A stretch of 64,000 bases of DNA, taken from positions 1-64,000 of the forward strand of contig JAFGTS010000055.1 of assembly GCA_016933965.1 (NCBI GenBank), read 5' to 3'. The DNA comes from Deltaproteobacteria bacterium. GTDB taxonomy: Bacteria > Desulfobacterota > Syntrophia > Syntrophales > UBA2210. The position numbers and the translations under genes are program-made. Each line of letters starts with the position of its first letter. Within the stretch, counting starts at the first letter, position 1. This document shows, in pieces, positions 1,175-60,020 of this stretch. The notes under the pieces were generated by a model. It was not told the DNA's origin, searched no databases, and saw only the letters and a list, made by a program, of their open reading frames with translations.

Positions 1175-1177
1175 ATG

Positions 1178-1237
1178 GATTGGGATTAGCGGATTAAAGG
1201 ATTAAGCGGATTACGAATTACGGGTTAAGAGGGTTAT
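1178..1237 (+). repeat. Degenerate GGATTA heptamer array
   Basis: A run of imperfect 7-base units of the type GGATTAG/GGATTAC starts immediately after the terminator. The same unit recurs downstream of six other gene 3' ends in this window, in the same sense as the upstream gene. No open reading frame of interest lies in it. Confidence 0.8.
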
Positions 1238-1418: not shown

Positions 1419-1436
1419 GAAGGCCCCAATCCCGAA

Positions 1437-2387
1437 TCACGAATCCCGCTGCCACTTTGAAACGATCCTTTCCGCTTCGGCGATGACGTCGTCTATGACC
1501 TCGCGGACGCTTTTCAGTTCCCGGATCATGCCGCCGATCTGGCCGCAGTAAACGGAACCTTCCTCGGTGTCGCCTTCGATGCTGGCCATGGCGGAGCGGC
1601 CTTCTCCGATCAGTTCGAATATTTCCTCCTGAGAGGCCTGCCGCTTTTCCGCTTCGAGGATCATCGCCGTCAGTTTGTTCTTGATGCCCCGTGTGGGCCC
1701 GACGGTCGTTCTTCCCGTGAGTGTCGTTCCATCAGCCGCGACCCGCAGGATAGCTTCCTTGAAGCGGGGGTGTGCTGCCGATTCATGAGTGGCGACGAAA
1801 CGTGTTCCCATCTGGACCCCCTGTGCTCCCAGGGCCAGGGCGGCCATGAATCCCCGGCCGTCCGCGATCCCACCAGCGGCCACGACCGGTATGGAGACAC
1901 GGTCAACGACCTGGGGGACCAGGGCCATGGTGGTGATCTCGTCGAAGCCGTCGTGACCGCCTGCCTCGATCCCCTCGGCGACGATAATATCCACTCCGGC
2001 GTCGGCGCACTTATCGGCGAACGAGACCGAGGGGACCACATGCATGACCGTGCAGCCCGCGTCCTTTATCATGGCGGTGAATTTTTTCGGGCTTCCCGCC
2101 GATGTCGAGACGGCCGTCGCGCCCCCCTTGATGCCGGCCTCGATCAGGTCCCAGGCATCGGGACGCGCCAGGGGAACATTGATACCGAAGGGTTTTGTCG
2201 TTATGTCGCGGACCTTTTTCGATTCCTCTATGACCTCTTCAACGGTCATGCCCCCCGTGGCGAGAAGGCCGAGGCCTCCCGCCTCGGAGACGGCCCCCGC
2301 AAGCTTGGCCTTGCCGATCCATACCATGCCGCCCAGAATGATCGGATACTCGATTCCCAGAATGTCGCAGACCAGTGTTTTGAACAT
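1437..2387 (-). CDS. Nitronate monooxygenase / FMN-dependent NPD-family oxidoreductase
   Basis: A 316-residue TIM-barrel flavoprotein of the 2-nitropropane dioxygenase (nitronate monooxygenase, FabK-like) family. The N-terminus has the family's typical start followed by YPIILGGM, the active-site segment GGHDGFDEIT is present, and the FMN-phosphate loops AAGGIADG and GVQMGTRF follow. The ATG at 2387 is preceded by AAGGAGG with good spacing. In anaerobes such proteins often accompany acyl-CoA pathways and may act as enoyl or nitronate reductases, so the oxygen-dependent name should not be taken literally. The stop codon lies inside an intergenic heptamer array, so the last residues (RDS) are encoded by repeat sequence. 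It is separated from the next upstream gene by about 300 bases of repeats and may be transcribed alone. Confidence 0.88.
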   Translation of the reverse strand: MFKTLVCDILGIEYPIILGGMVWIGKAKLAGAVSEAGGLGLLATGGMTVEEVIEESKKVRDITTKPFGINVPLARPDAWDLIEAGIKGGATAVSTSAGSPKKFTAMIKDAGCTVMHVVPSVSFADKCADAGVDIIVAEGIEAGGHDGFDEITTMALVPQVVDRVSIPVVAAGGIADGRGFMAALALGAQGVQMGTRFVATHESAAHPRFKEAILRVAADGTTLTGRTTVGPTRGIKNKLTAMILEAEKRQASQEEIFELIGEGRSAMASIEGDTEEGSVYCGQIGGMIRELKSVREVIDDVIAEAERIVSKWQRDS

Positions 2388-2693
2388 GAATGCCTCCTTG
2401 GCTGAGTTCTTGAGTTCGTAAGTTCATATGCTTATGAGCCGATATGCCCATGTGCCCGCGCGTACTGTAATGTATGGATTCACACAAGGTTTTTCAAGAA
2501 TACAGGATTAACTGATTCCCGGTCAGAATGCAAGGTTCATGAGTGCCTGAGTACAGGAATCGTGATTCGAGAAACGTGAACTGGGGATTCGGGATTGCAG
2601 TTGCCCGATTCATCGAGCTCTTTTTAAAAAGCCGATACATCGGCATACTACAAAACCAGACTGACAACATACCTGTCTGATAACCCGTAATCC
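2388..2693. repeat. Repeat-filled spacer with several degenerate unit types
   Basis: No gene is visible. The first part (about 2395-2460) is a degenerate octamer run of the type GAGTTCTT/GAGTTCGT/AAGTTCAT. About 2525-2600 has TGCCTGAG-like and ATTCGGG-like units. 2601-2655 contains a TTGCCCGATTCATCG motif and a small hairpin GCCGAT-ACATCGGC similar to those at 1304 and 3606. 2680-2722 is a TAATCC run (GGATTA on the minus strand) that overlaps the 3' end of the neighbouring SDR gene. Confidence 0.7.
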
Positions 2694-3563
2694 CTAATCC
2701 CTTATCCGCAATCCCGAATCCAGTTCCCCTTCAGACGCCTCATTTTCAGCCGCCTCATTTTCAGCCGCCTGTTTCCGATAGAATTCATACACACCGGACA
2801 ACCTGAGAATGGTGGTCATGATGGCAGGATGGATCGCTTCACAGAGCTTCATTATCAGTACCGGGCCCGGATTAACGATGATCTCCTGCTTGTCCTCTCT
2901 GATAGCGTGAATAACCGCCTTTGCAACCTTATCAGGTGTTGTTTCACCAGTCATGGCCGGCGCGCGTTTGTTGTAAACTGCAAACATTCCTTTTTCAGAT
3001 ACAAAGCCGGGGCAGACAACGGAAGCACTGACCCCCGTGCCCCGCAGTTCCTCCCTGAGTCCGCTCGTCCATTCAATAAGTCCCGCCTTTGTGGCGGCAT
3101 ACGTTGCTGAATAGGGTGACCCCTTTTGCCCTCCAAGGGAAGACATGGTCACAACATGTCCCTTTCCCCTTTCCAGCATGTGCGGGAGGAGAAGACGCGT
3201 CAGCAGAAGAGGGCCCCGCAGATTAGTGTCGATGATACGGCGTATATACTCGAGCGATAATTTGATATAACTGCAGACCCATTCTATACCTGCGTTGTTG
3301 ATCAGGATTTCTATGCTTCCAAGTTCACGGTGTGCCTGTTCAACGAGTTTTTTGAGAGAATCAGCATCGGTTATATCAACAGGAACGGCGACCGTTCGTG
3401 TGCCATGAACTGAGAGGTCTTTTGCAACGATGGTCAGTTCTTCTTTTGAACGGGCCGCCAGGACAAGATTGACACCTTCTTTCGCAAGTGCCTCGGCAAT
3501 GATCGGCCCGAGGCCCCTCGATCCTCCAGTGACGATAGCGTTGAGCCCTTTTATATTTTTCAA
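2694..3563 (-). CDS. Short-chain dehydrogenase/reductase with repeat-derived C-terminus
   Basis: A 289-residue SDR. The NAD(P)-binding glycine motif TGGSRGLG is at residues 12-19, NNAG at 89-92, Ser141/142 and the catalytic pair Tyr155 and Lys159 (YAATK) follow, so it should be an active oxidoreductase on a hydroxyacyl or sterol-like substrate. The start is a TTG at 3563 with AAAAGGAG upstream. The C-terminal tail is odd: a 15-bp tandem duplication encodes AAENE twice, and the last residues and the TAG stop are encoded by the GGATTC/GGATTA array that fills the spacer. It probably belongs to the same catabolic set as the genes at 3824-10112, from which it is separated by a 260-base repetitive spacer. 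Confidence 0.9.
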   Translation of the reverse strand: MKNIKGLNAIVTGGSRGLGPIIAEALAKEGVNLVLAARSKEELTIVAKDLSVHGTRTVAVPVDITDADSLKKLVEQAHRELGSIEILINNAGIEWVCSYIKLSLEYIRRIIDTNLRGPLLLTRLLLPHMLERGKGHVVTMSSLGGQKGSPYSATYAATKAGLIEWTSGLREELRGTGVSASVVCPGFVSEKGMFAVYNKRAPAMTGETTPDKVAKAVIHAIREDKQEIIVNPGPVLIMKLCEAIHPAIMTTILRLSGVYEFYRKQAAENEAAENEASEGELDSGLRIRD

Positions 3564-3823
3564 GCTTTTCGTCTCCTTTTCCAGTGGTTACTTCTCATCA
3601 AAGACATCGATATCGGCACACTGCAAAAACTTTGACCTCAGGAATCCCTGATTCCATCAGCAGCGCCTCAGTGCCTGGTTGATCCCCCTTTGAAAAAGGG
3701 GGATTGAGGGGGATTTTCAAGTATATAAATCCCTCCCGGCCTCCCTTTGCTAAAGGGAGGTGAAAAACCGTAATCCGTAATCCATAATCCCCATTCCCGA
3801 ATCCCGCCTCCTGATCCCCTCAC
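3564..3823. repeat. Composite repeat: double-hairpin element A between inverted octamer/heptamer arrays
   Basis: 3682-3768 is copy A of an 86-bp element with two hairpins, CCCCCTTTGAAAAAGGGGG and CCTCCCTTTGCTAAAGGGAGG-like. It is preceded by a short TGCCTG unit (3669-3677) and followed by TAATCC and CCCGAAT arrays and a CACTCAGGCAC unit (3818-3833) that contains the stop codon of the next gene. Copies B (12984-13069) and C (26917-27002) have the same flanks. 3606-3622 holds another GCCGAT-type small hairpin. Confidence 0.82.
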
Positions 3824-8256: not shown

Positions 8257-10112
8257 CAGAACCCCTCCTGTTGGGAAATTCCCAATCGATCAAGAACCGC
8301 CTGAGTGGGGTGCCCCGTCGGGTCCCAGCCGCGCAGGTGATAGTAACTGTCGAGCATGGACTCAAGTTCGATTGACGGCCACCCGTCTTCTCTGACTTCA
8401 TTCAACAGGCGGGGGGGCAGGGTATCGTCGGCCCTGTTGATGCCTTCGCGGCAGTTCATGAGCCGTTCGAGATTGAAGATACGTTCCCCTATCTCGTAGT
8501 ACTCGCTTTTTGAAATCCTGTATCCGAGAAGCCCCGACATGAGCGCGGCATAATCGGACAGATCCGTGGTCTTGACGGCTATGGCGGGGAGATTCCGCAT
8601 GATGAACTGCATGATGGGAAGGGGTGTATATTTGTACGCGAAGTTTTCCTCAAGGAAGGGATACATGGTCTGTATGCAGAAGATAGAGGAATTGACCGCG
8701 TCGGTCAGATCCTGCATGAACTTGACGAAGTGGGGTTTGCCCTTTGTTCCATGCTGGCTCAGATAGGTGTTGACTTCTATGGCATGGGTGCTGCCTGAAA
8801 GATGAGTGGCGCCGCAGTTGGCGGTCGCATATGCCAGGCCCTGGCCGGTGCATCCCCGCGGGTCATAGGCGGCCATTTCCAGACCTTTGACATGAATGGC
8901 GAAATCCTCGCCGCTGTATTTTTCAGAGAGTCGTTTCACTCCCTCGGCAAGCTCATCCCCCAGTCCCCTTCGATAGGCGATATCCTGAAGGAGTTCGGAA
9001 ATGCCGGAGGCGCTTCCAAAGGAAAGGGTACCGGAAAGCATACCGCGTTCCATCAGTTCCATGGCAAAACCGATCGTCCCGCCGGCACTGATTGAGTCCA
9101 TGCCGAGCCGGTTCAATATGTCGTTCCATTCGGCCACCATCGAAAGGTCGTCTATCATAAGGTTCGATCCCATCAGGCCGATGGTCTCATACTCTGGCGA
9201 TACCAGTTCCCTGCCGCCATAACGACCCATGCGCCCGCACTGAATAGGACATCCGACACAGCCATGATTTTTGACATAGTGCTCGTTCTTTATTTTCTCG
9301 GCGCTCAGATGTTGAATCTTATCGAAATTCGACACGCTGAAATTTCGCACCGGTGTGATGCCCGATGTGCCATAGAGCATCACGTTCTGCGGGGTCCCGA
9401 GTTCCCTGAGCTGCGTGCCCGTGTTCGGATGGGAGGCAACCTTTTCCTGCGCCCGTTTTACCGCTTTTTCAAAGAGTCCCGGATCGGCGGGACGAAATTT
9501 TCTGCCGCCTCGTGCCACGATGCCTTTAAGGTTCTTTGAACCCATGACGGTGCCGAGACCGCAACGTCCGGAGACTCGTCGCCCCGATACGATGACGGCG
9601 TACCGTACGAGATGTTCACCGGCAGGACCGATGACCGCCCAATCTCCTTCGTGCTTCCGTTCTTCCTGGACCTGATAGGTATCCATGCCCCAGAGAGAAG
9701 AGGCATCTTCAATGACGGCACCATCATCAGTGACCTTGATGTAGACCGGAGAATCCGAACACCCCCTGATCACGATCCCGTCAAACCCTGCTCGTTTCAG
9801 GCTGAGGCCGACGCGCCCGCCGGCGAGAGACGAGCCGAATATGCCGGTGAGAGGGGACTTGCCGGCAACAATGAAACGGCCTCCCGCTGGAGAGGGGGTT
9901 CCCGCGGTGGGTCCCGTCATCATGACAAGGATATTGTCGGGAGACATCGGGTCCGTTCCCGGCCTGATAGCGTCGTGTAATATCTTCAGGGCTATCCCTT
10001 TGCCGCCGAGGAATCGGCGGCGGTCTTCCGGGGAAACATCCATGTGATCGATGTGACCGGTGGTAAGGTCAACATCGAGAATCCTGTCGTTTACCGGACC
10101 GGGTGTTCCCAT
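8256..10112 (-). CDS. Aldehyde:ferredoxin oxidoreductase family (tungsten/molybdopterin)
   Basis: A 618-residue AOR-family protein, the usual length. The N-terminal domain starts with the common pattern ILDVDLTTG and shows GGKGIALKIL. The [4Fe-4S] ligand motif CVGCPIQCGR lies in the middle and the fourth conserved Cys is in LMNCREG near the C-terminus. The enzyme oxidises aldehydes to acids with ferredoxin, or runs in reverse, and binds a bis-pterin tungsten cofactor in the cytoplasm. The ATG at 10112 with GGGAGGGA upstream is preferred over a TTG at 10145. It is the first enzyme gene after TetR, 38 bases from it, and could feed the acid to the ligase two genes later. Confidence 0.94.
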   Translation of the reverse strand: MGTPGPVNDRILDVDLTTGHIDHMDVSPEDRRRFLGGKGIALKILHDAIRPGTDPMSPDNILVMMTGPTAGTPSPAGGRFIVAGKSPLTGIFGSSLAGGRVGLSLKRAGFDGIVIRGCSDSPVYIKVTDDGAVIEDASSLWGMDTYQVQEERKHEGDWAVIGPAGEHLVRYAVIVSGRRVSGRCGLGTVMGSKNLKGIVARGGRKFRPADPGLFEKAVKRAQEKVASHPNTGTQLRELGTPQNVMLYGTSGITPVRNFSVSNFDKIQHLSAEKIKNEHYVKNHGCVGCPIQCGRMGRYGGRELVSPEYETIGLMGSNLMIDDLSMVAEWNDILNRLGMDSISAGGTIGFAMELMERGMLSGTLSFGSASGISELLQDIAYRRGLGDELAEGVKRLSEKYSGEDFAIHVKGLEMAAYDPRGCTGQGLAYATANCGATHLSGSTHAIEVNTYLSQHGTKGKPHFVKFMQDLTDAVNSSIFCIQTMYPFLEENFAYKYTPLPIMQFIMRNLPAIAVKTTDLSDYAALMSGLLGYRISKSEYYEIGERIFNLERLMNCREGINRADDTLPPRLLNEVREDGWPSIELESMLDSYYHLRGWDPTGHPTQAVLDRLGISQQEGF

Positions 10113-12859: not shown

Positions 12860-13107
12860 ACGGGGGATTAACGGGGTACGGATTAGCGGATTACGGATTA
12901 ACGGATTAGTTATTTTATTCACAAATCTGCATCCCTGATCACGCCCATGGTGCCTGAGTGCCTAAATGCGTGACAAAACCTGCTTCCCCCTTTGGGAAAG
13001 GGGGATCGAGGGGGATTTCAAATACATAAATCCCTCCCGGCCTCCCTTTGCTAAAGGGAGGTGAAAAACATAATCCGATAATCCGTAATCCATAATCCGT
13101 TACTCAG
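12860..13107. repeat. Composite palindromic repeat with double-hairpin element B
   Basis: In order: GGATTA heptamer array directly after the stop codon (12860-12908), two TGCCTGAG units (12949-12966), the 86-bp double-hairpin element (12984-13069), and an array of TAATCCG units (13070-13105), the inverse of the first array. The outer arrays could pair and form a long cruciform around the hairpins. No gene is present between 12860 and 13176. Confidence 0.85.
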
Positions 13108-15013: not shown

Positions 15014-18000
15014 ATGAAAATTGCCTGGGTGAAACGTCTGAAATCCATTCTTTTCCTTTGTATCTCAATATCGTTGTTTATTATCGTCGGTTGTGCCGGT
15101 TCCGGTGATGACAACGCGTCGGCAAAGGAAGAGAAAGACCTTTTTTATCTCTCGGTCAGTACGGATGAGCTGACTGAACGATACCGGGACTGCTCGATCG
15201 GAACGGCCGTGACGGTTTCCTTCAACAAGGCCCTGGCCCTTGAACCCGCCGGGACGGGAACGAAATCCCTTGCCGCGGATGATGATATGTCGGCCGTCGA
15301 AGGTGCCGGTCTGATGAAAGTCTTCAAAGGGGAGCAGCTGGAAGAAATAACGGGAACGCTATATCTTTCCGGGGATGGACGGGAGCTTACCTTTGTTCCC
15401 GATGAACTCCTTGCTCCCGGAGCGGCCTACACCGTTCTCGTATCGTCGGTGATCCGTTCCATCGACGATGATTGTCTTGGCGAGGACTACTGTTTTCAGC
15501 TTGCAACGAACGATACCACCACGGTGGTGGACATCCTGGCGGACCCCGCTGTGATCCTCCAGGGTGAGCAGGTAACCTTTGCCGTTGATTCCACCGTCCC
15601 CTACCGGTCGGTCCTCTGGACGTTCAACAGCGGTGACGCCGATTCGGTGACGTCGTACGGGACCGGTCCCTTGTATACCTATAATGCCCCCGGGATCTAC
15701 CGCGTCACGCTGAACGTCGAAGACATCTACGGAAGGGAGTTCACCGCCGGTAAGGACATCCGGGTGTTCAAGAACATTGCCGCGGCCATGACAGAAAAGG
15801 GCGGGTTCCTCGATGTGCAGATGGTCGATCCCTCGGCGCTTGATGAGGGGACGCTCTCGTCGCTCGTCGACACTTACTCTGAAGATGTCCTGGCGGCGGT
15901 GACCGCCGATGTGTATACCTCGGGGGGAAAGGGGAAGGCGACACGCGCCGAGCCATCCAGGGTGGAAACGCTGGCGGAAATCATTCCCGGCCGGCCGCTT
16001 ACGTCCCTTGCCATAAGACCGGAACGGATCGCCTCCTTCGGGGCGGACTATATAAAGACGCTCATCAGAGAAGGTCGTTTTCTGGGAATCGTGAGCTTCA
16101 AGGGATTTCCCACCATCCTGTCCTACTATCCGTTGAACGACTACTATGTCCTGGAAATGTTCGTCAATGAAGGCAACATCAATGTTCAATACCGCGACGA
16201 CATCTATGATATCGACATTACCTCTACGGAAATGAGCCCCACCCCCTGGCTCCACCAGATGTCGATCCCGATCTGCCAGGAGGTTCTTGATAATCTCCAG
16301 CGATACCTGCCGAAAATGATCAGGCGGCCGCTGGATGTGTTCTATACCCGTAACGGTTTCTTCCGGCTTGATACCATCGAGGAGGCCCGGGAGACAAAGT
16401 CGGTAACAGGGGGATATGCTCGCAAGTGGAACATCGGCGGCAGCTTTTCCCTCGGACCGGTGACGTTCAGCGCCAGCGTCGGAAGCGGCGGTGTCAGCGC
16501 CGATGTCGATGTGGATGACAGCCTGACGGATCTTTACAATCTTCTGACGGGGGACCTTATCGACCTCCTCACGGGGTTGAAGGACTTCGTTCTCAAGATA
16601 GTCGACATGAACCCCTTTCAATATCTTGAAGACGTGAAGGACGGCTGCGAAGACATAAAAACGGAGTTCGTCTCGCTGCACAGTACGTTCAGTTCCGCCG
16701 GCGGCATCGTAACAGGAGCCACGGACCCGGCGGCGCTGATCGGTGATGTACGGGACCTGCTCTATACGAGCGCGGGCGCCTCGGTCAAATCCGTGGCTGA
16801 AGAAGCCATCAATGTGCTGAACTGTACGGGTGGCGCCTTCGAGCTCATCTCGGAACCGCTGCTGGCCGTCGGGGACGCCGGCACCTTCCTGGCGGGATTC
16901 GTCCCGTCGTTATCGACCGATTCTTATATTGTTTTCCATGTGGGCACGGACGAACTTTCACTGAAGGTAAAGGCGGGTTCTGTCCAGCAGACCCTGTCGC
17001 TGGATACCCTGAACACCCTCCTTGAATATGCCGATACGGTTCTTGATGAACTGGGCGCCGATTTTCCCTTGAGCGACGTTGTGAGCAAGATGGGGATAAT
17101 TGATGCGGCCCTCGGCTCCGGCGTTGCCGGCGAGGTCGGATTTTACTACACGGGAAGCCGTCAGGAACTGAAATTCCAGTTTTCCGTCCTTACAGGGAGC
17201 ACCGAGCTTTTCAGGCTGCGGGTGATGCTCTCGCCCACGTCATCGGGGCTCGACATAAAAGTGACGAACCCCCTGCAGACGGACACCTATGTCCTTCTTG
17301 AATATCAGCCCTTCTCTCTGCCGTCGGGCACGGACGATACGGTGGCCATGATGTTCGACATACTCGCTCTTGCGTCGAGTCCCTTTCCCGATATCACGCT
17401 GACCATGCAGACGAAGTACCGGGACATCATCATGCAGATCACCTCACGCCTCCGGCCGGATTACGGGTTTACCGCCTATATCAATCTGGGGGTGGAACTG
17501 GATTACTATATCGGTATCGGCGGAAAGGGAGAAGTGGGCGTCCAGATATATGTGGGTGTCGATGGAAGCGCCATCTCCGGCGAGGTGGTAAAGAACGCGG
17601 CCAAGAGCGCCTTCACGGCCGGCCGGGATTCCTTCTCCCAGTTCTTCAGTACCGTCAGCGGTGACGGCGGTTCCTATAACCGTATGAATTTCCCCGACGA
17701 GGACCAGTTCATTGATTTCCTCTATACCTTCATGGGAGATCTGCGTACCCAGCTGGTGGCGAACGGCGTCGCGGAAAGTCTCCTGGGGGCAGTGACGGTC
17801 GGTATCTCTCCCTCGGCGGAGATCGGTATCGGTCTCGGCGCCGGCGGCACGGGAACGGGCGGCGGTGCCGTAAATCTTTCCCTGGGGACGGCCTTTGACA
17901 TGAACGCGAACCTTCTCTTTTTCCGTGATACCCTGCTCGCCTATTACCGGAACAAGGATGTCAATACCTTCCTCATGACACCCCTCATGGAATCGATGGA

Positions 18001-21000
18001 GGCCATGAACGCGTCTGACCGGAGCAATCCCTTCGATGTGAAGGGCATCGCAAAGCTCTTCGAGGAAGGATTCATGGAAATAATCGAACAGCTGCCGGCG
18101 GGCTCCGAGACCGAGACGACAAAGTACAATGCCATCAACGGGCTCTTCAACAGCATGGCGCAGAATGTCAGCTTCGGCCTCAGTTTCCAGGCCGGGATCG
18201 ACGGCGAGCTTGAGGAGGGTGGAGACATCGAAGCCGGTTTTGCCCTCGGTCCCTCGATCTCCGCGAACGGGGAGTTCGTCTTCAACACCCTCTATCCGGT
18301 CCTGTCAAAGGCATTGACGCTCAAAGGCGCGCCGCAGACCATAAAGGACCGTTTGATCGTCCTGGACCAGCCGGGGATATTCCCCGAGGTTTCCTTCACC
18401 CTTCCCCTGAGTGGAAGCATCGAGCTGGGATTCGATGAAGCGGTGCAGGTGAACCTGGGCGTGGGAGCCCAGATGAACTTCATCGAGGGAACGGTCACCC
18501 TCCAGGGAGACCCCTTCCGGACCGTGACGGCCGGCGGGATCTACGGAACGAAGAAACTGCGTACCTACCCGGTGGTGGCCATGACACAGTCACCGTCGAC
18601 GGCGGTACGGGGCCAGGCGGTAACCTTCTCCGTCAGCCAGAGCGAACTGAAGACGGGGACGACCATAGCCGATACCACATGGTATATCAACGGCCAGGAG
18701 ATCACCGGGAACGGGGCGGTAATAGAGAACAGTGAAACGATAGCCACTGTGACCGATACAACCTCTGCCACGGCGATAACCTTTACGCCGGGTAAGATCA
18801 TGGAATATCGTGTCCGATGTGATGTGACGGACAGTGACGGACGGAATGATTTCGACTATATCGTGTACGTTACGGCCAACCAGGTGCCGACACAACCCGT
18901 CCTTACCCTCCTCGACAACGCCCAACTGACACGGATCGACCGGATCCCCCTGAGCGCCACCGATCCCGACGGGGATCCGCTGACCTTCGAGGTCAAGATA
19001 TCCTGGGATGCGGGTTTCACCAATGTCCTCTACAGCTATACCTTTACGGGAACGGAGATCGCGCTTCCCTATTCGATCATCGACGGAAACTCTTATTACA
19101 TAAAAGTGCGGGCCTATGACGGAATGGATTACGGACCCTGGAGCGCCGTCAAGTATTTTTCGGTCATCCCCCTGCCTGTGGAGCTCATATCGCCTGTGAA
19201 CGGCCAGAACTTTATTTATGGGGCCCAGGATATCATCACCTTTGAGTGGGACAGCGATGCCGATTATTATGACTATCGATTTATGATTGCCGATAACACG
19301 TCGTTTGTGTCTCCCATAGTCGATGAATTCGCAGGAACCGCTCGTCTGTATGAGTTTTCCGGCACGGAGCTTGAAGGGACACCCCCTGGAGTGTATTACT
19401 GGCGTGTGGCAGGCTACAACCTGCAGGCCGAAGCCCTTGACTGGGGAGAAACCTGGAGCTTCACACTGGGCCCTCCGCCGACCGTGCTCTATGACCCGGC
19501 CCACAAAGCAAGTATTTCGCACACCCAGCCGGTCCACTTCGAGGTGGAAGACCCGGGCGATGTCGATTCTTTTGAATTCCAGTATTCCGTTACCCCCTCG
19601 TTCGGGTGGGGGAATGTGGGAAATGTAAGCACGTCGACCATCTGGGAGACGGGGCCACTTCCAGTAGGCACCTATTTCTGGCGCGCACGAACGCTGGCGA
19701 ACGGTATCCCAAGTGCCTGGACGGAGGCACGAATGTTCTGGGTCACGAACACGGCACCATCGAAGGTTACCCTCACCGGTCATCAGAAGGGCGGTTGCAT
19801 TGACGGGACGCTGAAACTGAACTTCACTTCTACGGACCCCGATGGGGACGCCATTACCTACCTGGTGTATCTCAGGGCCGGGGCTGATGATGGCGGCGGA
19901 CTGCCGACATATGACCTTTTGAAGTCCTACACTGTCACGCAGAATCAGATCACCTTCGATCTCACTGAGGGCGGCTATGATTTCTACGTCGACATCCAGG
20001 CCATGGATGCCCTCGGCGCACTCTCCCCCGGCTGGGACAAGAATCAGATGTTCCATGCGTATACGTATAACTGTCCGCCGGAACCGCCGAAGCCGCTCTC
20101 TCCCATCGACGGCTATGAGGTCATTCGTGACAACGTGACCCTTACCGCCCAGGTACCGACCGATCCCGACGGTGATCCCATCACCCAGTATATATTCCTG
20201 ATAAAGAAAGGGGCCACGGAAATACAGAAAACCTCAGCGATACCTCAAGTCTTGGTGACGGACCTTGAACAGGGTGAGTATACATGGAAGGTCCGGGCCG
20301 TCTCGGGTACCATCGTTGGAGTCGACATGCTGCAAAGCGGGTACGGTGAGGAACGCCGGTTTACTGTTCTCGACAATCAGGCCCCCGAGACGATCAATGA
20401 ATCGCCGGCCGACGGCAGCGTTTTTCCCGCCGTCAACTGGATCACCCTGACGGTGCAGGTGAACGATCCCGAGGAGGATGAGATCCTCTCCTGCACGTTC
20501 GAATTGGCCGACAGCAGCTCCGTGGTGGCTGATTACAAGGATATCCACAGTTCATCGGTCGAGGTCGGCATGCAGCTTCCCCCTGAGATCTATTATTGGC
20601 GGGCCTTTGCCGCCGACGCGGGAGGCCCCGGCGAATTCGGCCCTGCCACCTGTTTCAGCGTCATAGACGGTGTTATCCCGCCGAACATTGCGGGCGCAGA
20701 GGTGGGGAATGAGATTGAATTTCTCCGTGTCGACGGCGTGGTGGCCCTGACCTTCAAGGCGCATACCTATACAACGAACTGCCTCGGTGAATTTACGGGG
20801 ACCCTTGAGTATGAGATCCGCGACGATGAAAGCGTGCTTGCCGTTCCCATCGGCAACTTCGAAAACGGTGTCCCCTTCGGCCTTGAACTTCCGGTGGGCG
20901 ATTATTTCTGGAAGGCGCGCCATGTAGTGGCCGGGATGGCCAGCGCCTGGAGCGAGCCGCTGGTGATCACCGTTCAGGAAGCGAACGAACGACCCCTGGC

Positions 21001-22801
21001 GGAAAATCTCACGCCCGTGGCGGGGGCCATATTCAACACCGATGATGATATCCTTCTGACAATGAACGCGACGGACCCCGATGAAGACCCCATCCAGTCC
21101 CACGATTTTCAGTACGATCCAGACCCGGAATTTTCCGAGCCCGTCGAGTTTACCGACCTGCCGGTGGATAGCGTCGGAACCGGGACCCTCACGCCGGGTA
21201 TCTATTACTGGCGGTGCCGGGCGGCCGATGAGATCGGCGAAGGTGACTGGAGCGAGCCGACCTGCTTCACGGTCATCGATACCGTTGCCGTACCGGATAT
21301 AGAAGAAGCCGGAAATCCAACGAGTTACCGCCAGGCCGCCGGGGAATTGGAGATCACCTTCCATGCCGTGACCGACCTGCGCGACTGTCTGGAAAATCCC
21401 GTTGCCGGTGTTCTTCACTATAAAATTTCCTATTCCGCGGGCGACGACATTGTGGGGACCTTTGAAAACGGTGTGCCCTTTTCCCTGGAACTCGCCCCCG
21501 GGGATTATGTCTGGCGGGCCCAGCACGAGGTTGCCGGCATCCTGAGCGGGTGGACAGAGCCCTTCGCCTTTGAGGTGCTCGAAGAGAACGGGCTTCCCCT
21601 GTCCGAGAATGTGACACCCGAAGCCGGAGCCGTATTCCCCATCGAGAATGTTATTACCCTGACGCTGGGTGTGACTGATCCCGATGAAGACCCCATTCTT
21701 ATGTATGATTTCGAGTACGATACGAGCGCGGGCTTTGACGATGATCCCCAGCAGGTGATCGGTGCCGTAACAGGCTCGGTAGACATCGTACCCCCTGTTC
21801 TTCCCGCCGATACCTACTACTGGCACGGCCGGGCGGCCGATGCCGAGGGATACGGCGACTGGAGCCAGCCCACCTGCTTCAGTGTCGTCGCGAACGTGGC
21901 GACGCCGAACATCACCGACGCGGGGAACGCGACGGAGTTCGAGGAAGATGACGGCGAGGTGGATCTTACCTTCAATGCCATTACCTATACCACGAACTGC
22001 CTTGAACAGCATGTCGGTGAACTTCGCTACCAGATAGCCTGGGATGATGAATTCGAAGAAATCGACGCCGAGGGAGTGTTCGTCAACGGCGTGGCCTTTA
22101 CCCTTGAGATGAATCCGGGTTCCTATTACTGGCGGGCGGCCCACGTGGTCGAGGGGGTGTGGAGCGAGTGGAGCGCGGCGGAGACCTTTACTGTCACCGA
22201 GCCGGTGCAGGCCCTCTTCAGTGAGGACTTCGAATCCGGCCTGGGTGACTGGAGCCTGGTCCAGAGCGGTGCGGGGATATTCGTCCTTGAGACGATCGTT
22301 GACGGTGACAGCACTGTGTTCCATTACCGTCGGTCCAATTCGAACGGCGGCGGAGGTGAGGGCGGCATCCAGCAGTCCCTGGATGCAATCGGCATTACCG
22401 GTTATTCGGCAGTGTATCTCGAATTCGATGTCAAGCTCATCAGCCACAGCCTGACGAACAGCGGTTCATGGACCTTCAATAACGGTGGTACCGGGGAATT
22501 CCCCGCCGATGTGCTGCTCTATTTCACGGATACGAACGAGGACGATTATATCTGGAATCACGGATTCATGCTGAACGTCGATTCCTACGGGAGACAGAAC
22601 TACACAGTGCTGACGGCAGGGCAGTGGTACCATTACACCTCGCCCAACCTGATCGGGGAGCAGACGACACAGACGCCGGGGGGGAGTGTTACGCCGATAC
22701 CGAGCGGAACGATTGGAATTTTAAATACCCTGAGGCTTCGGGGCCATGGCTGGGACTTCGAGGGAGAGTTCGACAACGTAACGATAACCTTCGTTCCCTG
22801 A
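15014..22801 (+). CDS. Giant multi-module lipoprotein (PKD and FN3/Ig-like repeats)
   Basis: 2,595 residues. A type II signal peptide ends in the lipobox IVGC with Cys27. About residues 45-150 resemble a bacterial Ig-like (Big_5) domain, and 170-255 a PKD domain (YNAPGIYRVTLNVEDIYG). Residues 256-1185 are a large region I do not recognise, with many Gly-rich amphipathic beta segments. From about 1186 to 2398 there are some twelve modules of about 100 residues, many with ATDPDGDP-type loops; the last six form three tandem pairs of about 200 residues (1791, 1992, 2193 onward), each with TDPDEDPI-like and YYWRxRAAD-like motifs. About 2399-2595 look like a jelly-roll carbohydrate-binding-type domain starting FSEDFESGLGDW. 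It is probably anchored in the outer membrane, acting in adhesion or matrix binding. GGAGGGTGG precedes the ATG. Confidence 0.88.
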   Translation: MKIAWVKRLKSILFLCISISLFIIVGCAGSGDDNASAKEEKDLFYLSVSTDELTERYRDCSIGTAVTVSFNKALALEPAGTGTKSLAADDDMSAVEGAGLMKVFKGEQLEEITGTLYLSGDGRELTFVPDELLAPGAAYTVLVSSVIRSIDDDCLGEDYCFQLATNDTTTVVDILADPAVILQGEQVTFAVDSTVPYRSVLWTFNSGDADSVTSYGTGPLYTYNAPGIYRVTLNVEDIYGREFTAGKDIRVFKNIAAAMTEKGGFLDVQMVDPSALDEGTLSSLVDTYSEDVLAAVTADVYTSGGKGKATRAEPSRVETLAEIIPGRPLTSLAIRPERIASFGADYIKTLIREGRFLGIVSFKGFPTILSYYPLNDYYVLEMFVNEGNINVQYRDDIYDIDITSTEMSPTPWLHQMSIPICQEVLDNLQRYLPKMIRRPLDVFYTRNGFFRLDTIEEARETKSVTGGYARKWNIGGSFSLGPVTFSASVGSGGVSADVDVDDSLTDLYNLLTGDLIDLLTGLKDFVLKIVDMNPFQYLEDVKDGCEDIKTEFVSLHSTFSSAGGIVTGATDPAALIGDVRDLLYTSAGASVKSVAEEAINVLNCTGGAFELISEPLLAVGDAGTFLAGFVPSLSTDSYIVFHVGTDELSLKVKAGSVQQTLSLDTLNTLLEYADTVLDELGADFPLSDVVSKMGIIDAALGSGVAGEVGFYYTGSRQELKFQFSVLTGSTELFRLRVMLSPTSSGLDIKVTNPLQTDTYVLLEYQPFSLPSGTDDTVAMMFDILALASSPFPDITLTMQTKYRDIIMQITSRLRPDYGFTAYINLGVELDYYIGIGGKGEVGVQIYVGVDGSAISGEVVKNAAKSAFTAGRDSFSQFFSTVSGDGGSYNRMNFPDEDQFIDFLYTFMGDLRTQLVANGVAESLLGAVTVGISPSAEIGIGLGAGGTGTGGGAVNLSLGTAFDMNANLLFFRDTLLAYYRNKDVNTFLMTPLMESMEAMNASDRSNPFDVKGIAKLFEEGFMEIIEQLPAGSETETTKYNAINGLFNSMAQNVSFGLSFQAGIDGELEEGGDIEAGFALGPSISANGEFVFNTLYPVLSKALTLKGAPQTIKDRLIVLDQPGIFPEVSFTLPLSGSIELGFDEAVQVNLGVGAQMNFIEGTVTLQGDPFRTVTAGGIYGTKKLRTYPVVAMTQSPSTAVRGQAVTFSVSQSELKTGTTIADTTWYINGQEITGNGAVIENSETIATVTDTTSATAITFTPGKIMEYRVRCDVTDSDGRNDFDYIVYVTANQVPTQPVLTLLDNAQLTRIDRIPLSATDPDGDPLTFEVKISWDAGFTNVLYSYTFTGTEIALPYSIIDGNSYYIKVRAYDGMDYGPWSAVKYFSVIPLPVELISPVNGQNFIYGAQDIITFEWDSDADYYDYRFMIADNTSFVSPIVDEFAGTARLYEFSGTELEGTPPGVYYWRVAGYNLQAEALDWGETWSFTLGPPPTVLYDPAHKASISHTQPVHFEVEDPGDVDSFEFQYSVTPSFGWGNVGNVSTSTIWETGPLPVGTYFWRARTLANGIPSAWTEARMFWVTNTAPSKVTLTGHQKGGCIDGTLKLNFTSTDPDGDAITYLVYLRAGADDGGGLPTYDLLKSYTVTQNQITFDLTEGGYDFYVDIQAMDALGALSPGWDKNQMFHAYTYNCPPEPPKPLSPIDGYEVIRDNVTLTAQVPTDPDGDPITQYIFLIKKGATEIQKTSAIPQVLVTDLEQGEYTWKVRAVSGTIVGVDMLQSGYGEERRFTVLDNQAPETINESPADGSVFPAVNWITLTVQVNDPEEDEILSCTFELADSSSVVADYKDIHSSSVEVGMQLPPEIYYWRAFAADAGGPGEFGPATCFSVIDGVIPPNIAGAEVGNEIEFLRVDGVVALTFKAHTYTTNCLGEFTGTLEYEIRDDESVLAVPIGNFENGVPFGLELPVGDYFWKARHVVAGMASAWSEPLVITVQEANERPLAENLTPVAGAIFNTDDDILLTMNATDPDEDPIQSHDFQYDPDPEFSEPVEFTDLPVDSVGTGTLTPGIYYWRCRAADEIGEGDWSEPTCFTVIDTVAVPDIEEAGNPTSYRQAAGELEITFHAVTDLRDCLENPVAGVLHYKISYSAGDDIVGTFENGVPFSLELAPGDYVWRAQHEVAGILSGWTEPFAFEVLEENGLPLSENVTPEAGAVFPIENVITLTLGVTDPDEDPILMYDFEYDTSAGFDDDPQQVIGAVTGSVDIVPPVLPADTYYWHGRAADAEGYGDWSQPTCFSVVANVATPNITDAGNATEFEEDDGEVDLTFNAITYTTNCLEQHVGELRYQIAWDDEFEEIDAEGVFVNGVAFTLEMNPGSYYWRAAHVVEGVWSEWSAAETFTVTEPVQALFSEDFESGLGDWSLVQSGAGIFVLETIVDGDSTVFHYRRSNSNGGGGEGGIQQSLDAIGITGYSAVYLEFDVKLISHSLTNSGSWTFNNGGTGEFPADVLLYFTDTNEDDYIWNHGFMLNVDSYGRQNYTVLTAGQWYHYTSPNLIGEQTTQTPGGSVTPIPSGTIGILNTLRLRGHGWDFEGEFDNVTITFVP

Positions 22802-24213: not shown

Positions 24214-24635
24214 GCACTCAGGGATCGTGAATCGGTATTCGGAATTGATGATTCGGGAAACGTGATTTAAAATTCGGGATTCGGGTTTTCCATCATTGCG
24301 AACCCAACGAAGGTGGGTGTGGCAATCTCATGGGTTCGGTTGTACTTTAAGATTGCTTCGCTTCGCTCGCAATGACAAATAAGGTCAGTGGTTCGCAATG
24401 ACAAATAAGGTCGGTGGTTTGCCGATTCATTGGTGGCATTCGGGATGACGGATTACGGGGTACGGATTATGGATTACGGGGTACGGATTATAGATTACGG
24501 GGTACGGATTATAGACATAATGGATTATCGGATTACGGATTACGGATCAGGGTAATAAACGCTCACTTTGTCGTTTTTTGTAAATAATCCACTGTGTCAC
24601 TTTGTCGCTTTGCCCCTTTGTCACTCTGCCCCTTT
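24214..24635. repeat. Spacer stacked with five repeat families
   Basis: This 679-base divergent spacer has no gene. In order: CACTCAGG and ATTCGGG units (24214-24290); a full TCATTGCGAG element in reverse orientation (24294-24377); a 26-bp tandem duplication (24369-24420); a GGATTAC array (24450-24547) that includes a 21-bp unit repeated three times (24451-24513); and an octamer run of the CTTTGTCA/CTTTGTCG/CTTTGCCC type (24562-24635). The rest up to 24789 shows only the ribosome site of the next gene. Confidence 0.85.
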
Positions 24636-26874: not shown

Positions 26875-26880
26875 CTATCA

Positions 26881-27060
26881 GTGCCTGAGTGCCTGAGTGC
26901 CTGAGTGCAACAGAAGTCCCCCTTTGTAAAAGGGGGATTGAGGGGGATTTTCAAGTATATAAATCCCTCCCGGCCTCCCTTTACGAAAGGGAGGTGAAAA
27001 ACCCAAGGGTTGTTTGTTAATAATTACGACGGTTCGCACTCAGGAACTCAGGTACTCAGC
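26881..27060. repeat. Composite repeat with double-hairpin element C, inside the dehydratase cluster
   Basis: Three and a half perfect GTGCCTGA octamers (26881-26908) begin six bases after the stop codon. They are followed by the 86-bp double-hairpin element (26917-27002) and by CACTCAGG-type octamers in inverse orientation (27037-27060). It separates the two subunits of what is presumably one enzyme. Confidence 0.85.
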
Positions 27061-50146: not shown

Positions 50147-50454
50147 AGCCTGTCTCCTCTGAGGACATGGTGCTGTTGATGGGTTCCGCCTGATACCCCC
50201 GCGGACATCGCGGTGTTCTCCGGCACCGGGGACCCCGGGACCGTCCGGTCGGCCATGCATGCTCGGAAGGTCCGATGAACGACCGTTCTCAGACTAATAA
50301 CCTCTTTTTGAAGAGATTTCAAGTATCTTGAATTTTTATGTTCTTCGTGATAAAAAACTTTCCTTTATCTGAAGTGTTATGGATCACTCCCGGTCCGGAG
50401 CGGTGCCCGGAAAGTGAGCGTGTGAACGGGACCGGGATCCCCATAGGTGACACG

Positions 50455-51105
50455 GTGAAATATTACCCTGTTTACTTGAATATTCTCGATCGATCCTGTG
50501 TCGTTGTCGGCGGAGGCGGTGTTGCAGAAAGAAAGGTAGCACGCCTTCTTGAAAGCGGGGCGCGGGTAACGGTCGTGAGCCGCACGCTGACGGCACGGCT
50601 GGATGGTATCAGGAGGGAGAACGGGATCGTCCATATCGATGATGAGTACCGGAAGGAATATCTGACAGGCGCCCGCCTCGTCATCGGTGCCACCGACGAC
50701 CCGGTGGTGAACGGTCTCCTTTTCCGGGATTGCCGGGAGTTGGGGATTCCCGTCAACATAGTCGACGACCCCCTTCGGTGCGATTTTATACTTCCCGCCG
50801 TCGCCGAGCAGGGAGACCTTTCCATCGCCGTTTCGACGGCCGGGAAAAGCCCCCTTCTCGCCCGTCGTCTCCGGGAGGAGCTGGAGGAACGGTACGGCCC
50901 CGAGTATGCCGTTCTCCTGAAGATAATGGGAGACCTGCGGGAACGGATCATCGCCCGCGGCGGAGGCTCCGGCGATAACCGGGAGATATTCGAGAGGGTT
51001 CTGGATTCGCCGGTACTCGAGCATATACGGAACGGCGCCTGGGAAGAGGTGCGCAGGATCATCCGGGAAACGACGGGTGAGGAGGTCGATGTGGGAGGGG
51101 ATTAG
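50455..51105 (+). CDS. Precorrin-2 dehydrogenase (Met8/SirC-type), possible sirohydrochlorin ferrochelatase
   Basis: 216 residues. KYYPVYLNI at the N-terminus and the NAD-binding VVVGGGGVAERKVARLL are the signature of the CysG N-terminal domain/Met8/SirC family; AVSTAGKSPLLARRLREELE follows. It oxidises precorrin-2 to sirohydrochlorin and may insert iron. Start GTG at 50455 with AGGTGA upstream gives the canonical N-terminus; the open frame runs back to 50338. The TAG stop is inside a GGGGATTAG repeat unit. Likely co-functional with the heme block that follows. Confidence 0.92.
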   Translation: MKYYPVYLNILDRSCVVVGGGGVAERKVARLLESGARVTVVSRTLTARLDGIRRENGIVHIDDEYRKEYLTGARLVIGATDDPVVNGLLFRDCRELGIPVNIVDDPLRCDFILPAVAEQGDLSIAVSTAGKSPLLARRLREELEERYGPEYAVLLKIMGDLRERIIARGGGSGDNREIFERVLDSPVLEHIRNGAWEEVRRIIRETTGEEVDVGGD

Positions 51106-51220
51106 CGGATTACGGATTAGGGATTACGGATTAGGGATTACGGATTAATGTTCCCGAATCCCGAATAACGAATCCCGATTCACCAATCCCGGATCCCGCA
51201 CTCAGGCACTCAGGCACTTG
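51097..51220. repeat. GGATTA/CCCGAAT/CACTCAGG composite array (copy flanking the hem block, left)
   Basis: Seven or so GGATTAC/GGATTAG units, then CCCGAAT units, then two CACTCAGG octamers, starting inside the stop region of the upstream gene and running to within 12 bases of the next start codon. The stretch CCCGAATCCCGAATAACGA also occurs in the copy at 55777-55869. Confidence 0.85.
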
Positions 51221-51231
51221 GTTTTTTAACT

Positions 51232-54265: not shown

Positions 54266-55786
54266 ATGACGGGGAAAGGATGTTTGTTCATCATCGGCGC
54301 CGGACCGGGTGATCCGGGCCTGATCACCGTTAAAGGTCTGGAATGCCTGAAAAGGGCCGATGTCGTCGTCTATGATTACCTCGTCGGGGAAGCCCTTCTG
54401 CGGCATGTCCGAAAAGACGCCCGGCTGATCTATGTGGGGAAAAAAGGAGGGCACCACACGGTTTCCCAGGATGAGCTGAACCGTATCCTTGTTCGGGAAG
54501 CGTCGACGGGAGCCGTTGTCGCCCGCCTCAAGGGAGGTGATCCCTTCATATTCGGACGGGGCGGCGAGGAGGCGGAGGTCCTTGCCGGCGCGGGGATCCC
54601 CTTTGAGGTGATCCCCGGTGTCACCTCGGCGATCGCCGTTCCCGCCTATGCGGGCATTCCGCTCACCCACCGCGAATTCACATCCACCGTGGCTTTCGTG
54701 ACGGGGCACGAGGACCCTGAAAAAAGTGAGAGCCGCATCGATTGGGACAAGCTCGCCACGATCGAAACACTGGTGTTTCTCATGGGGGTGAAGAACCTGA
54801 GCCAGATCGCGGATAACCTCATGTGGAGGGGCAGGGACCCTGAAACGCCCGCGGCGCTTGTCAGGTGGGGTACGACGCCCGATCAGGAGACCCTGGTGGG
54901 GACCCTCGGTAATATCGCCCGGCGGGCCGATGCGGCCGGCATGACCCCTCCCGCCATCCTTGTCGTCGGTGAGGTGGTGGGCCTGCGGGACCGCCTGAAC
55001 TGGTTCGAGACAAAACCGCTGTTCGGCAAGGGGGTCTTGATAACCCGGCCCGAGGAGCAATCGGGGGAACTGGTGGAACTTCTTTCGCGAGCCGGTGCAC
55101 GGGTGATATCGTTCCCGACGATCGGCATCGTGCCGCCGGAAAACTACGATGCCCTGGACCGGTCGATAGAACATATCGAGGAGTACCAGTGGATCATTTT
55201 CACCAGCGCGAACGGGGTCCGGTCCTTTCTCCTGAGATTGATGGAAAAGGGCGGGGACGTTCGAGACCTCAAAGGTATCAGGTTCTGCGCCATCGGTCCC
55301 GCGACGGCGAGGATGCTCGAGGAACGCGGAATATCCGTCGATGCCGTTCCTGGAGAGTACCTGTCGGAAGGTGTCGTGGAAGTGCTGAAAACATATGATA
55401 TGAAAGGAACACGGGTACTGCTGCCGCGGGCGGAACGGGCGCGGGACGTGATTCCCGAGGGACTCGCCGGAATGGGTGCGACGGTCGATGTGGTGACGGC
55501 ATACCGGACCGTCAGTTCCGGCCGTGACGGGGCCGAATTGGCGGGCCTGCTTGAAGAGGGCCGGATCGACGTCATCACCTTTACAAGCCCGTCAACGGTG
55601 AAACACTTTATGGAAATTCTGGGTAATGTTTCGGTCCTGCCCGGATCCACCAGGATCGCCTGTATCGGTCCCGTGACAAAGAGCGCCGCCGAGAAGGCGG
55701 GCCTGACCGTCGATATCATGCAGGGTCCCTATGTGATAGAGGGGCTGGTGGAAGCAATGGTGAGGTATTTTGAAAAGGGGGATTAG
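54266..55786 (+). CDS. cobA-hemD: Uroporphyrinogen-III C-methyltransferase / uroporphyrinogen-III synthase fusion
   Basis: 506 residues. Residues 1 to about 245 are the SUMT domain (IGAGPGDPGLITVKG, KGGDPFIFGRGGEE, PGVTSAIAVPAYAGIPLTHR), and about 250-506 the HemD domain (FTSANGVRSF, ITFTSPSTVKHF). The fusion cyclises hydroxymethylbilane and methylates the product to precorrin-2, feeding siroheme, the Ahb heme route and B12. The ATG at 54266 follows the hemC stop by one base. The TAG stop is inside the GGGGATTAG start of the downstream array. Fusions of this type are common in anaerobes. Confidence 0.96.
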   Translation: MTGKGCLFIIGAGPGDPGLITVKGLECLKRADVVVYDYLVGEALLRHVRKDARLIYVGKKGGHHTVSQDELNRILVREASTGAVVARLKGGDPFIFGRGGEEAEVLAGAGIPFEVIPGVTSAIAVPAYAGIPLTHREFTSTVAFVTGHEDPEKSESRIDWDKLATIETLVFLMGVKNLSQIADNLMWRGRDPETPAALVRWGTTPDQETLVGTLGNIARRADAAGMTPPAILVVGEVVGLRDRLNWFETKPLFGKGVLITRPEEQSGELVELLSRAGARVISFPTIGIVPPENYDALDRSIEHIEEYQWIIFTSANGVRSFLLRLMEKGGDVRDLKGIRFCAIGPATARMLEERGISVDAVPGEYLSEGVVEVLKTYDMKGTRVLLPRAERARDVIPEGLAGMGATVDVVTAYRTVSSGRDGAELAGLLEEGRIDVITFTSPSTVKHFMEILGNVSVLPGSTRIACIGPVTKSAAEKAGLTVDIMQGPYVIEGLVEAMVRYFEKGD

Positions 55787-55869
55787 GGGATTACGGATTA
55801 CGGAATAGGGGATTACGGATTACGGATTAGTGTTACCGAATCCCGAATAACGAGTCCCGTTTCCCGAAT
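55777..55869. repeat. GGATTA/CCCGAAT composite array (copy flanking the hem block, right)
   Basis: Begins in the cobA-hemD stop codon: GGATTAC units up to about 55830, then CCCGAAT units, ending 20 bases before the ahbC start. It resembles the array at 51097-51220 unit by unit. Confidence 0.85.
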
Positions 55870-55889
55870 TTACTGAATGGAGTTTTTTT

Positions 55890-57071
55890 GTGATCGGTAT
55901 TTCTAAATTATACTGCGGGGCGGTCGAGCCGTCCGATGTTCTTCGCTACGGCGGTGAATCATCGGAGCTGCCGTCGCACCTGCTTCAATTTTCCCGCGAT
56001 AAGCGGCCCGTGGTGGTCTGGAACGTGACGAGGCGGTGCAATCTCAAATGCCTTCATTGCTATTCAAGCTCGCAGAACCTGCGCTATGAGGACGAGATGA
56101 CCACCGATGAGGGGAAAGCGTTCCTTGATGACCTCGCCTCCTTCGGGTGTCCCGTGGTGCTGTTTTCCGGCGGGGAACCCCTGATGAGGCGGGACCTTCC
56201 CGACCTGATAAGCCATGCCGTCGGCCGGGGCATGCGGGCCGTCATCTCTACGAACGGTACCCTGATCACGGAAGAACGGGCGGATGTCTTCAGCCGCCTG
56301 GGACTTTCCTACGTCGGTGTCAGCCTTGACGGGATCGGTGAGGTGAACGACCGCTTCCGGGGTGTGCCGGGTGCCTTCGACGCGGCGCTCGGGGCCATCA
56401 GGACCTGTATCGCCAGGGGGATCAAGGTCGGCATCCGGTTTACCATAACAAGAAGGAACGCCGCCGAGATACCGGCCATCTTCGATCTTGTCGAGAAAGA
56501 GAACATCCCCCGGGTATGTTTTTATCACCTGGTCTATTCGGGGCGGGCCTCCGAACTTGTCTCGGAGGACCTTTCTCACGATGAGACCAGGCGGGTCGTG
56601 GACCTGATCATGGACCGGACCCGGGACCTTTTCGACCGCGGACGTCCGACGGAGGTCCTGACCGTTGATAACCACGCCGACGGTCCCTATCTCTATCTGC
56701 GGCTTCTGCGCGAGGATCCCCGCCGTGCCGCCGAGGTTCTCGAGTTGCTGAAGATGAACGAGGGAAATAATTCCGGTCGCGGCATCGGGTGTGTGAGCTG
56801 GGACGGGGAGGTCCACGCGGATCAGTTCTGGAGGAACATATCCTTCGGGAATGTGCGGAATCGCGCCTTCAGCGAGATATGGCAGGACGGGAGCAATGAA
56901 TTGATGGCACAGCTGAAGAACAAGAAAGAGTATGTGACGGGAAGATGCGCGCGGTGTCGCTGGCTCGCTGTCTGCGGGGGGAACTTCAGGGCCCGCGCCG
57001 AAGCGGTGACGGGAGATATCTGGGCGCCCGACCCGGCCTGTTACCTGACCGATGAAGAGATAGGCGTGTGA
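55890..57071 (+). CDS. ahbC: AhbC-type radical SAM enzyme (12,18-didecarboxysiroheme deacetylase)
   Basis: 393 residues. The start IGISKLYCG is characteristic of AhbC. The radical SAM motif CNLKCLHC has Cys50, Cys54 and Cys57, SGGEPLMR follows, and C-terminal cysteines (CVSWDGEVHADQF, CARCRWLAVC) bind extra clusters. It removes two acetate side chains from didecarboxysiroheme to give Fe-coproporphyrin III in the oxygen-independent heme route. GTG start with GGAG seven bases upstream. Confidence 0.93.
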   Translation: MIGISKLYCGAVEPSDVLRYGGESSELPSHLLQFSRDKRPVVVWNVTRRCNLKCLHCYSSSQNLRYEDEMTTDEGKAFLDDLASFGCPVVLFSGGEPLMRRDLPDLISHAVGRGMRAVISTNGTLITEERADVFSRLGLSYVGVSLDGIGEVNDRFRGVPGAFDAALGAIRTCIARGIKVGIRFTITRRNAAEIPAIFDLVEKENIPRVCFYHLVYSGRASELVSEDLSHDETRRVVDLIMDRTRDLFDRGRPTEVLTVDNHADGPYLYLRLLREDPRRAAEVLELLKMNEGNNSGRGIGCVSWDGEVHADQFWRNISFGNVRNRAFSEIWQDGSNELMAQLKNKKEYVTGRCARCRWLAVCGGNFRARAEAVTGDIWAPDPACYLTDEEIGV

Positions 57072-59926: not shown

Positions 59927-59982
59927 CCCGGCGCTGGATCATCATTTCAATATTCCATTCTTCTCCCATTGAGTTGCAGAAA

Positions 59983-60020
59983 AGGGTTCGAGGGTTCAAG
60001 GTCTCAAGGGTTCAGGGGTT
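59983..60020. repeat. GGGTTCAA octamer array (left of the flavoprotein gene)
   Basis: Degenerate units AGGGTTCG, AGGGTTCAAGG, TCAAGGG, TTCAGGGG. The inverse array TTGAACCC lies at 62064-62119, on the other side of the flavoprotein gene. Confidence 0.75.

Follow-up and report, generated by a model that had tools for sequence, protein, structure and literature searches.

The intergenic gaps of this Syntrophales MAG carry lineage-specific islands of 7–8 bp tandem units which, on balance, we consider likely to be insertions that are tolerated only between genes and so come to abut stop codons and assume their function. The stronger regularity of these islands is the orientation of their G-rich strand, to which array pairs remote from stops and those in divergent gaps also conform. 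The preference of the arrays for stop codons is real, but it is modest (approximately 1.5- to 2-fold) and looks secondary. The genome (2.85 Mb, 96.7% complete) had its best protein matches in Syntrophales MAGs, and 2.65 Mb of it was covered by the repeat census. Genes (2267) were called with a purpose-written ORF caller based on codon usage, whose stop positions can be trusted more than its start positions.

Stop codons within repeats in the window

The window, i.e., the whole 64-kb stretch of DNA that was analyzed, contained the following arrays of four unit families (A to D):

1177–1236, plus strand: family A array, facing the array at 1426–1445 within one convergent gap
1426–1445, minus strand: family B array of approximately 2.5 units, within which the NMO-like gene (1437–2387, minus strand) has its TGA stop
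2681–2721, minus strand: family A array, inside which the SDR gene (2694–3563, minus strand) terminates
3771–3790, minus strand: family A array downstream of the HpaB-like gene, whose stop at 3824 has a single, weak family C unit
12865–12908, plus strand: family A array, just past the stop at 12859
13071–13098, minus strand: family A array, facing 12865–12908, both in one gap
24443–24549, plus strand: family A array in a divergent gap, distant from both start codons
24592–24635, minus strand: family D octamer array (GACAAAGN/GGCAAAGN), facing 24443–24549
26880–26908, plus strand: family C octamer array, just past the stop at 26874
51099–51147, plus strand: family A array (GGATTAC/GGATTAG) of seven units, the first of which provides the TAG stop of the SirC-like gene (50338–51105)
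51152–51198, minus strand: family B array (GATTCGG-type heptamer), opposite to the preceding family A array and its head-to-head partner
51199–51218, minus strand: family C octamer units (AGTGCCTG), oriented as the family B array at 51152–51198
55780–55829, plus strand: family A array with the cobA-hemD TAG stop in its first unit
55838–55871, minus strand: family B array, head-to-head partner of 55780–55829

Direct reading of the window sequence placed four stop codons inside short-unit repeats (1437, 2694, 51103–51105, and 55784–55786). The SirC-like gene ends in GGA GGG GAT TAG, its TAG (51103–51105) being part of the first GGATTAG unit of the array, and cobA-hemD ends in GGG GAT TAG. The stop of the SDR gene is a TAG several units deep in its array, inside GGATAAGGGATTAGGGATTACGG, and approximately seven C-terminal residues of the SDR protein are encoded by the repeat. 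That of the NMO-like gene is a TGA inside GATTCGTGATTCGGG, within an array of only about 2.5 units. Five genes had been listed as ending in repeat by the initial annotation; four of these stand, and the fifth, the HpaB-like gene (minus strand) with its TGA in GTGCCTGAGTG, is a weak case in which the repeat extends over little more than one octamer unit. The two further arrays reported just past stops were confirmed, beginning approximately 4 bp after 12859 and 7 bp after 26874. A G-rich block was followed by a C-rich block in the window pairs 1177/1426, 12865/13071, 24443/24592, 51099/51152, and 55780/55838 (named by their first positions).

Some other features of the window were recorded. T runs were located between the islands and the next gene at 51220–51228 and 55880–55890, in the hem gene cluster. 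An additional octamer family (AAGGGTTC) was found at 59982–60020 and, elsewhere in the genome, at C1:55030, also in a G-first inverted pair. The stretch 15014–22801 was occupied by a very long open reading frame (2595 codons).

Genome-wide distribution of the arrays

Counted against reversed-core controls, the census gave 106 vs. 4 arrays for family A (GGATTA heptamer), 17 vs. 0 for family B (GATTCG), 17 vs. 4 for family C (TGCCTG octamer), and 26 vs. 1 for family D (GACAAAG octamer). The arrays were situated almost only between genes and were rare in coding sequence. Across the genome, 15 arrays of the four families touched a stop codon and none touched a start codon; family A arrays within 10 bp of a start were likewise absent genome-wide. 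The GGATTA core of family A was followed by the linkers C (161), T (50), or AC (25), and the most frequent array size was four units. Comparison by thirds along the arrays (0.82, 0.88, 0.80) revealed no clear age gradient.

Overlap with a stop, or a beginning less than 10 bp after one, was observed for 27 family A arrays, vs. 12.9 expected under uniform placement in the same gaps. The expectation rose to 15.4, 17.5, and 18.4 when 25, 60, and 100 bp before starts were kept clear, respectively, and the excess had a P of about 0.001 or less. The genome-wide count at stops proposed with the initial annotation therefore returned an excess (27 vs. 13–18 expected). Because this excess shrank as more room before starts was kept clear, neither recognition of stops nor growth at stops is required for the larger part of it. 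The suggestion that repeats are recruited to, or expand at, gene 3′ ends is thus borne out as to the excess itself, but the excess is modest and can mostly be explained without either process. It was carried by tandem gaps (17 vs. 7.5–10.5 expected for family A); in convergent gaps, family A alone was not significantly enriched near stops (10 vs. 8 expected), and the four families together gave 14 vs. 9.7 expected (P about 0.045).

Orientation of the G-rich strand

Among the near-stop family A arrays, the G-rich strand was the sense strand in 25 of 27, and in 17 of 17 in tandem gaps. Blocks with a stop as the 5′ neighboring edge lay at a median of 12 bp from it, vs. 184 bp on the far side. Where the 5′ neighboring edge was a start, the block was closer to the 5′ ORF in 45 of 71 cases, so that the edge rule was weak there. 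A general G skew after stops was rejected as the cause of the polarity, the skew being weak in repeat-free gaps (only +0.07 vs. +0.37). Safety provided by stops in three frames was also rejected: the dominant sense unit, GGATTAC, is free of stops in every frame, and it is the disfavored antisense orientation that has a TAA in each unit.

Between neighboring blocks within a gap, the orientation switched from G-rich to C-rich in 35 cases (19 in tandem, nine in convergent, and seven in divergent gaps) and from C-rich to G-rich in none. A de novo, motif-free count with Tandem Repeats Finder likewise gave 27:0 in favor of the G-rich block preceding the C-rich one. Eight unordered family pairs, unrelated unit families included, all followed this order; counting each type of pair once, the ratio was 8:0 (two-sided p about 0.008). 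Modules recurred, e.g., family A joined directly to reversed family B through GGATTACGAATCCC, or family A with reversed B and C, and were probably copied, so that the 35 pairs do not represent 35 independent events. A fixed mobile element with set ends was rejected, since the families at the ends formed at least eight pairings, though some modules recurred. Under a stricter count of partners (at least three GATT cores), six pairs were G-first and none C-first, and a partner was found for four of the 27 near-stop arrays, indicating that many arrays are single-armed.

Selection at the RNA level could have set the polarity at gene edges through the loss of wrongly oriented arrays: immediately downstream of a stop, C-rich RNA would recruit Rho or leave the message open to degradation, and G-rich RNA resembling a Shine-Dalgarno sequence would misdirect ribosomes if placed just ahead of a start. 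The 25:2 sense bias of family A near stops agrees with this, as does the ratio of one sense to nine antisense at 10–29 bp before starts in tandem gaps. Divergent pairs, however, obeyed the rule in seven of seven cases, and in six of these the distance from either block to a start codon was 59 bp or more, which makes proximity to gene edges no easy explanation of the rule, and single blocks in divergent gaps showed only a slight edge polarity (24/37). RNA-level selection therefore accounts for the edges but not easily for the divergent pairs, and we consider it rather unlikely as the origin of the polarity.

The abrupt beginning of arrays at stops, their sense polarity in tandem and convergent gaps, and the involvement of several unrelated G-rich units would also be expected if the naked transcript behind the last ribosome formed R-loops that exposed a G-rich non-template strand to slippage, each stop opening a prone zone. 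This appears improbable, given that the head-to-head rule holds also in divergent gaps, which are not 3′ ends, and that the presence of one unit at about 100 loci requires copying between loci rather than local slippage.

Gene ends and comparison with relatives

An order-level search returned no other genome of the same genus and consequently no empty site in a close relative, so the comparison was made with distant orthologues. Among 54 relatives, 49 had sirC and ccsA separated by −5 to +4 bp; here the gap at this operon junction was 126 bp, mostly repeats, beginning at the sirC stop. The C-terminus of SirC was within about three residues of the ends of most orthologues, and GAT-TAG-like ends (residue D followed by TAG) were already present among SirC relatives, so the SirC stop may be native. 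IspDF (C7:33094; L251) had a C-terminal tail, GLRDYGLTDYGLRD, of about 15 residues that was wholly encoded by GGATTAC-type units; relatives were without this tail and ended roughly 10–15 residues earlier. In PccB (C48:10654), the stop was the TGA of a GTGACAAAG unit, at a position where nine of ten relatives had TAA or TAG, and the protein length equaled that of the relatives within one residue. RapZ kept its native end, with an array 4 bp later. Replacement of native stops by repeats, as had been proposed for comparison with orthologous C-termini, thus fits IspDF and PccB but not necessarily SirC.

The pattern GGATTACGGATTA occurred 181 times in this genome, and not at all in the 18 other genomes of the family; no other genome of the order contained it more than twice. 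Arrays of the relatives used other units (CGGTTYAC, AACTGAT, AATAGTGAATGGTG, AAGGAGTGAAGAGT, ACTGAAGGCTAAAG, and AGTTCAG). Near stops these were sense in 12 cases and antisense in three, two of the latter coming from the second of two closely spaced convergent genes and hence double counts. Strict cases of the pair rule in relatives were few (L174 and L237). Judging from these comparisons, units appear to turn over fast among relatives while the stop-side polarity recurs. Since, in addition, several unrelated families obey the rule in this genome, it is hard to invoke a function tied to a single motif (e.g., a G-quadruplex, a protein site). In another MAG, an octamer (TTTTCGTG) and a heptamer (CTTTGAA) of its own formed arrays just past the sirC orthologue (L173, about 8677–8781); the sirC junction seems to have been hit independently there.

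Structure of the repeat regions

The arrays might act as structures of 3′ untranslated regions, i.e., as hairpin terminators, message-stabilizing stems, or G-quadruplexes. Folding was indeed strong at some regions (C41:3414, z = −5.9; C11:20353, z = −4.1), and the commonest array size of four units is like that of the G-quadruplex repeats of Rehm et al. Nevertheless, the mean z was −0.94 for 35 array-bearing 3′ regions and −0.86 for 150 control gaps, a non-significant difference (p = 0.44), on which grounds a hairpin or terminator function was rejected. Four or more GGG tracts were present in only five of 106 family A arrays; 71 of the 106 contained no GGG at all, and a G-quadruplex requirement was rejected as well. 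Units of the relatives, e.g., AGTTCAG or AATAGTG, are also devoid of G runs. A structural role of this kind is consequently unlikely.

Comparison with known repeat systems

The layout is known in kind from Xanthomonas and Nostoc, and the new point is its independence from motif. In these genera, GGGAATC and GGGGA(C/T)T repeats, respectively, were described to which no function could be assigned (Rehm et al., 2015; PMC4692102). The heptamer arrays are distributed genome-wide and, in Xanthomonas, are about 90% intergenic. Past stops, up to a distance of 50 bp and with some arrays overlapping the stop itself, the repeats are on the coding strand, and before starts on the non-coding strand, at an average of 28 nt from the 5′ ORF vs. 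160 nt from the downstream ORF (PMC4692102). Their unit number has a mode of four, and pairs in convergent orientation numbered 70 and 75 in two Xanthomonas genomes (PMC4692102). Transcription counts among the criteria for repeats of this group. The arrays described here share with them the intergenic location, the sense strand after stops (strongly), the antisense strand before starts (1:9 at 10–29 bp in tandem gaps), and the convergent pairs, which here made up 35 of 35 and, de novo, 27 of 27. They differ in their main unit (GGATTAC instead of GGGNATC or GGGGAYT) and in lacking, except in five of 106 arrays, the four GGG tracts of a three-layer G-quadruplex. Furthermore, a single genome here has several mutually unrelated families of 7- and 8-mers that all follow the rule, the units differ between related species, and the orientation rule was tested in divergent gaps and against C-first pairs.

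The TAACTGA repeats of marine Beggiatoaceae are found mostly directly upstream of starts and were proposed to be translation regulators (MacGregor, 2015; PMC4679880). They too are intergenic heptamer arrays with stop codons within the unit (PMC4679880), whereas the main unit here is another one and no family A array lay within 10 bp of a start. Relatives of this genome do have AACTGAT-type units, but its own main unit is not of this type. The STRR repeats of Calothrix are lineage-specific tandem heptamers. The heptanucleotide repeats of this name in heterocystous cyanobacteria, which are mentioned in PMC4692102, share that character with the present arrays.

Origin of the islands

The head-to-head layout of interstitial telomeric arrays is a sign of joined ends. 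If a telomerase-like process extended free 3′ DNA ends at breaks with G-rich repeats, the joined ends would form comparable scars, which would be G-rich to C-rich only, never the reverse, in any gene configuration and with mixed families on the two arms. Reverse transcriptases that synthesize tandem-repeat DNA are known from bacteria (DRT10; PMC12632851), and breaks have received interstitial telomeric repeats in primates, rodents, human, and horse (PMC7215372). The vertebrate sequences (PMC7215372, PMC8537989) are likewise short, G-rich internal tandem arrays, inserted at breaks; they are eukaryotic and consist of the telomeric unit, whereas here a reverse transcriptase was not found. A search for RVT_1 family reverse transcriptases had no match in this genome (96.7% complete) or in the heptamer-bearing genome G107, and Ku was not found in the 19 family genomes searched, so both were rejected as agents. 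One Y1 transposase was present in this genome. End addition at breaks thus predicts the inward G strand exactly but comes without an enzyme found here, and we regard a telomerase-like process as very unlikely. That a lineage-specific G-rich 7- or 8-mer was added to free 3′ ends in gaps and the ends joined, with the resulting telomere-fusion-like islands giving their neighbors stops and C-terminal tails, likewise has a low probability.

Insertion between genes, the explanation we favor, would proceed as follows. Short intergenic gaps would receive islands, either by insertion or by the copying of composite modules, and only islands leaving coding sequence, ribosome-binding site, and promoter unbroken would survive; the nearest such harmless site would be a stop codon. 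With both arms pointing inward, the arm that meets a stop would be G-rich in the sense direction. Units containing TAG, TAA, or TGA could then become the stop, with between 0 and about 15 residues added to the protein. The stop codon would accordingly be a landing site left by selection and not a target. Insertion rather than expansion in place is suggested by the distant orthologues, and selective removal from other positions by the absence of start overlaps together with the rarity of arrays in coding sequence. Two observations count against the landing-site reading: the excess of GGATTA arrays in tandem gaps persisted with 100 bp before starts kept clear (17 vs. 10.5), and single blocks with a start as the 5′ neighboring edge obeyed the edge rule weakly (45/71).

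The orientation rule suggests that these repeats have a common mode of origin or of tolerance, and the comparison of inward with outward pairs is a simple test applicable to any genome. For the genes concerned, the islands show a route to new stop codons and short C-terminal tails.

Dispersed palindromes beside the arrays

Two families of dispersed palindromes were also observed. The first (CACCTCCCTTTCGTAAAGGGAGGCCGGGAGGGATTT) was present at 3700–3770 of the window and elsewhere; of the 106 family A arrays, 13 had it on their downstream side in matching orientation and two had it reversed. The second, GCCCGATTYATCGGGC or GCCGATTTATCGGC followed by a T run, occurred at 1300–1330 and 2600–2660 of the window, also beside arrays.
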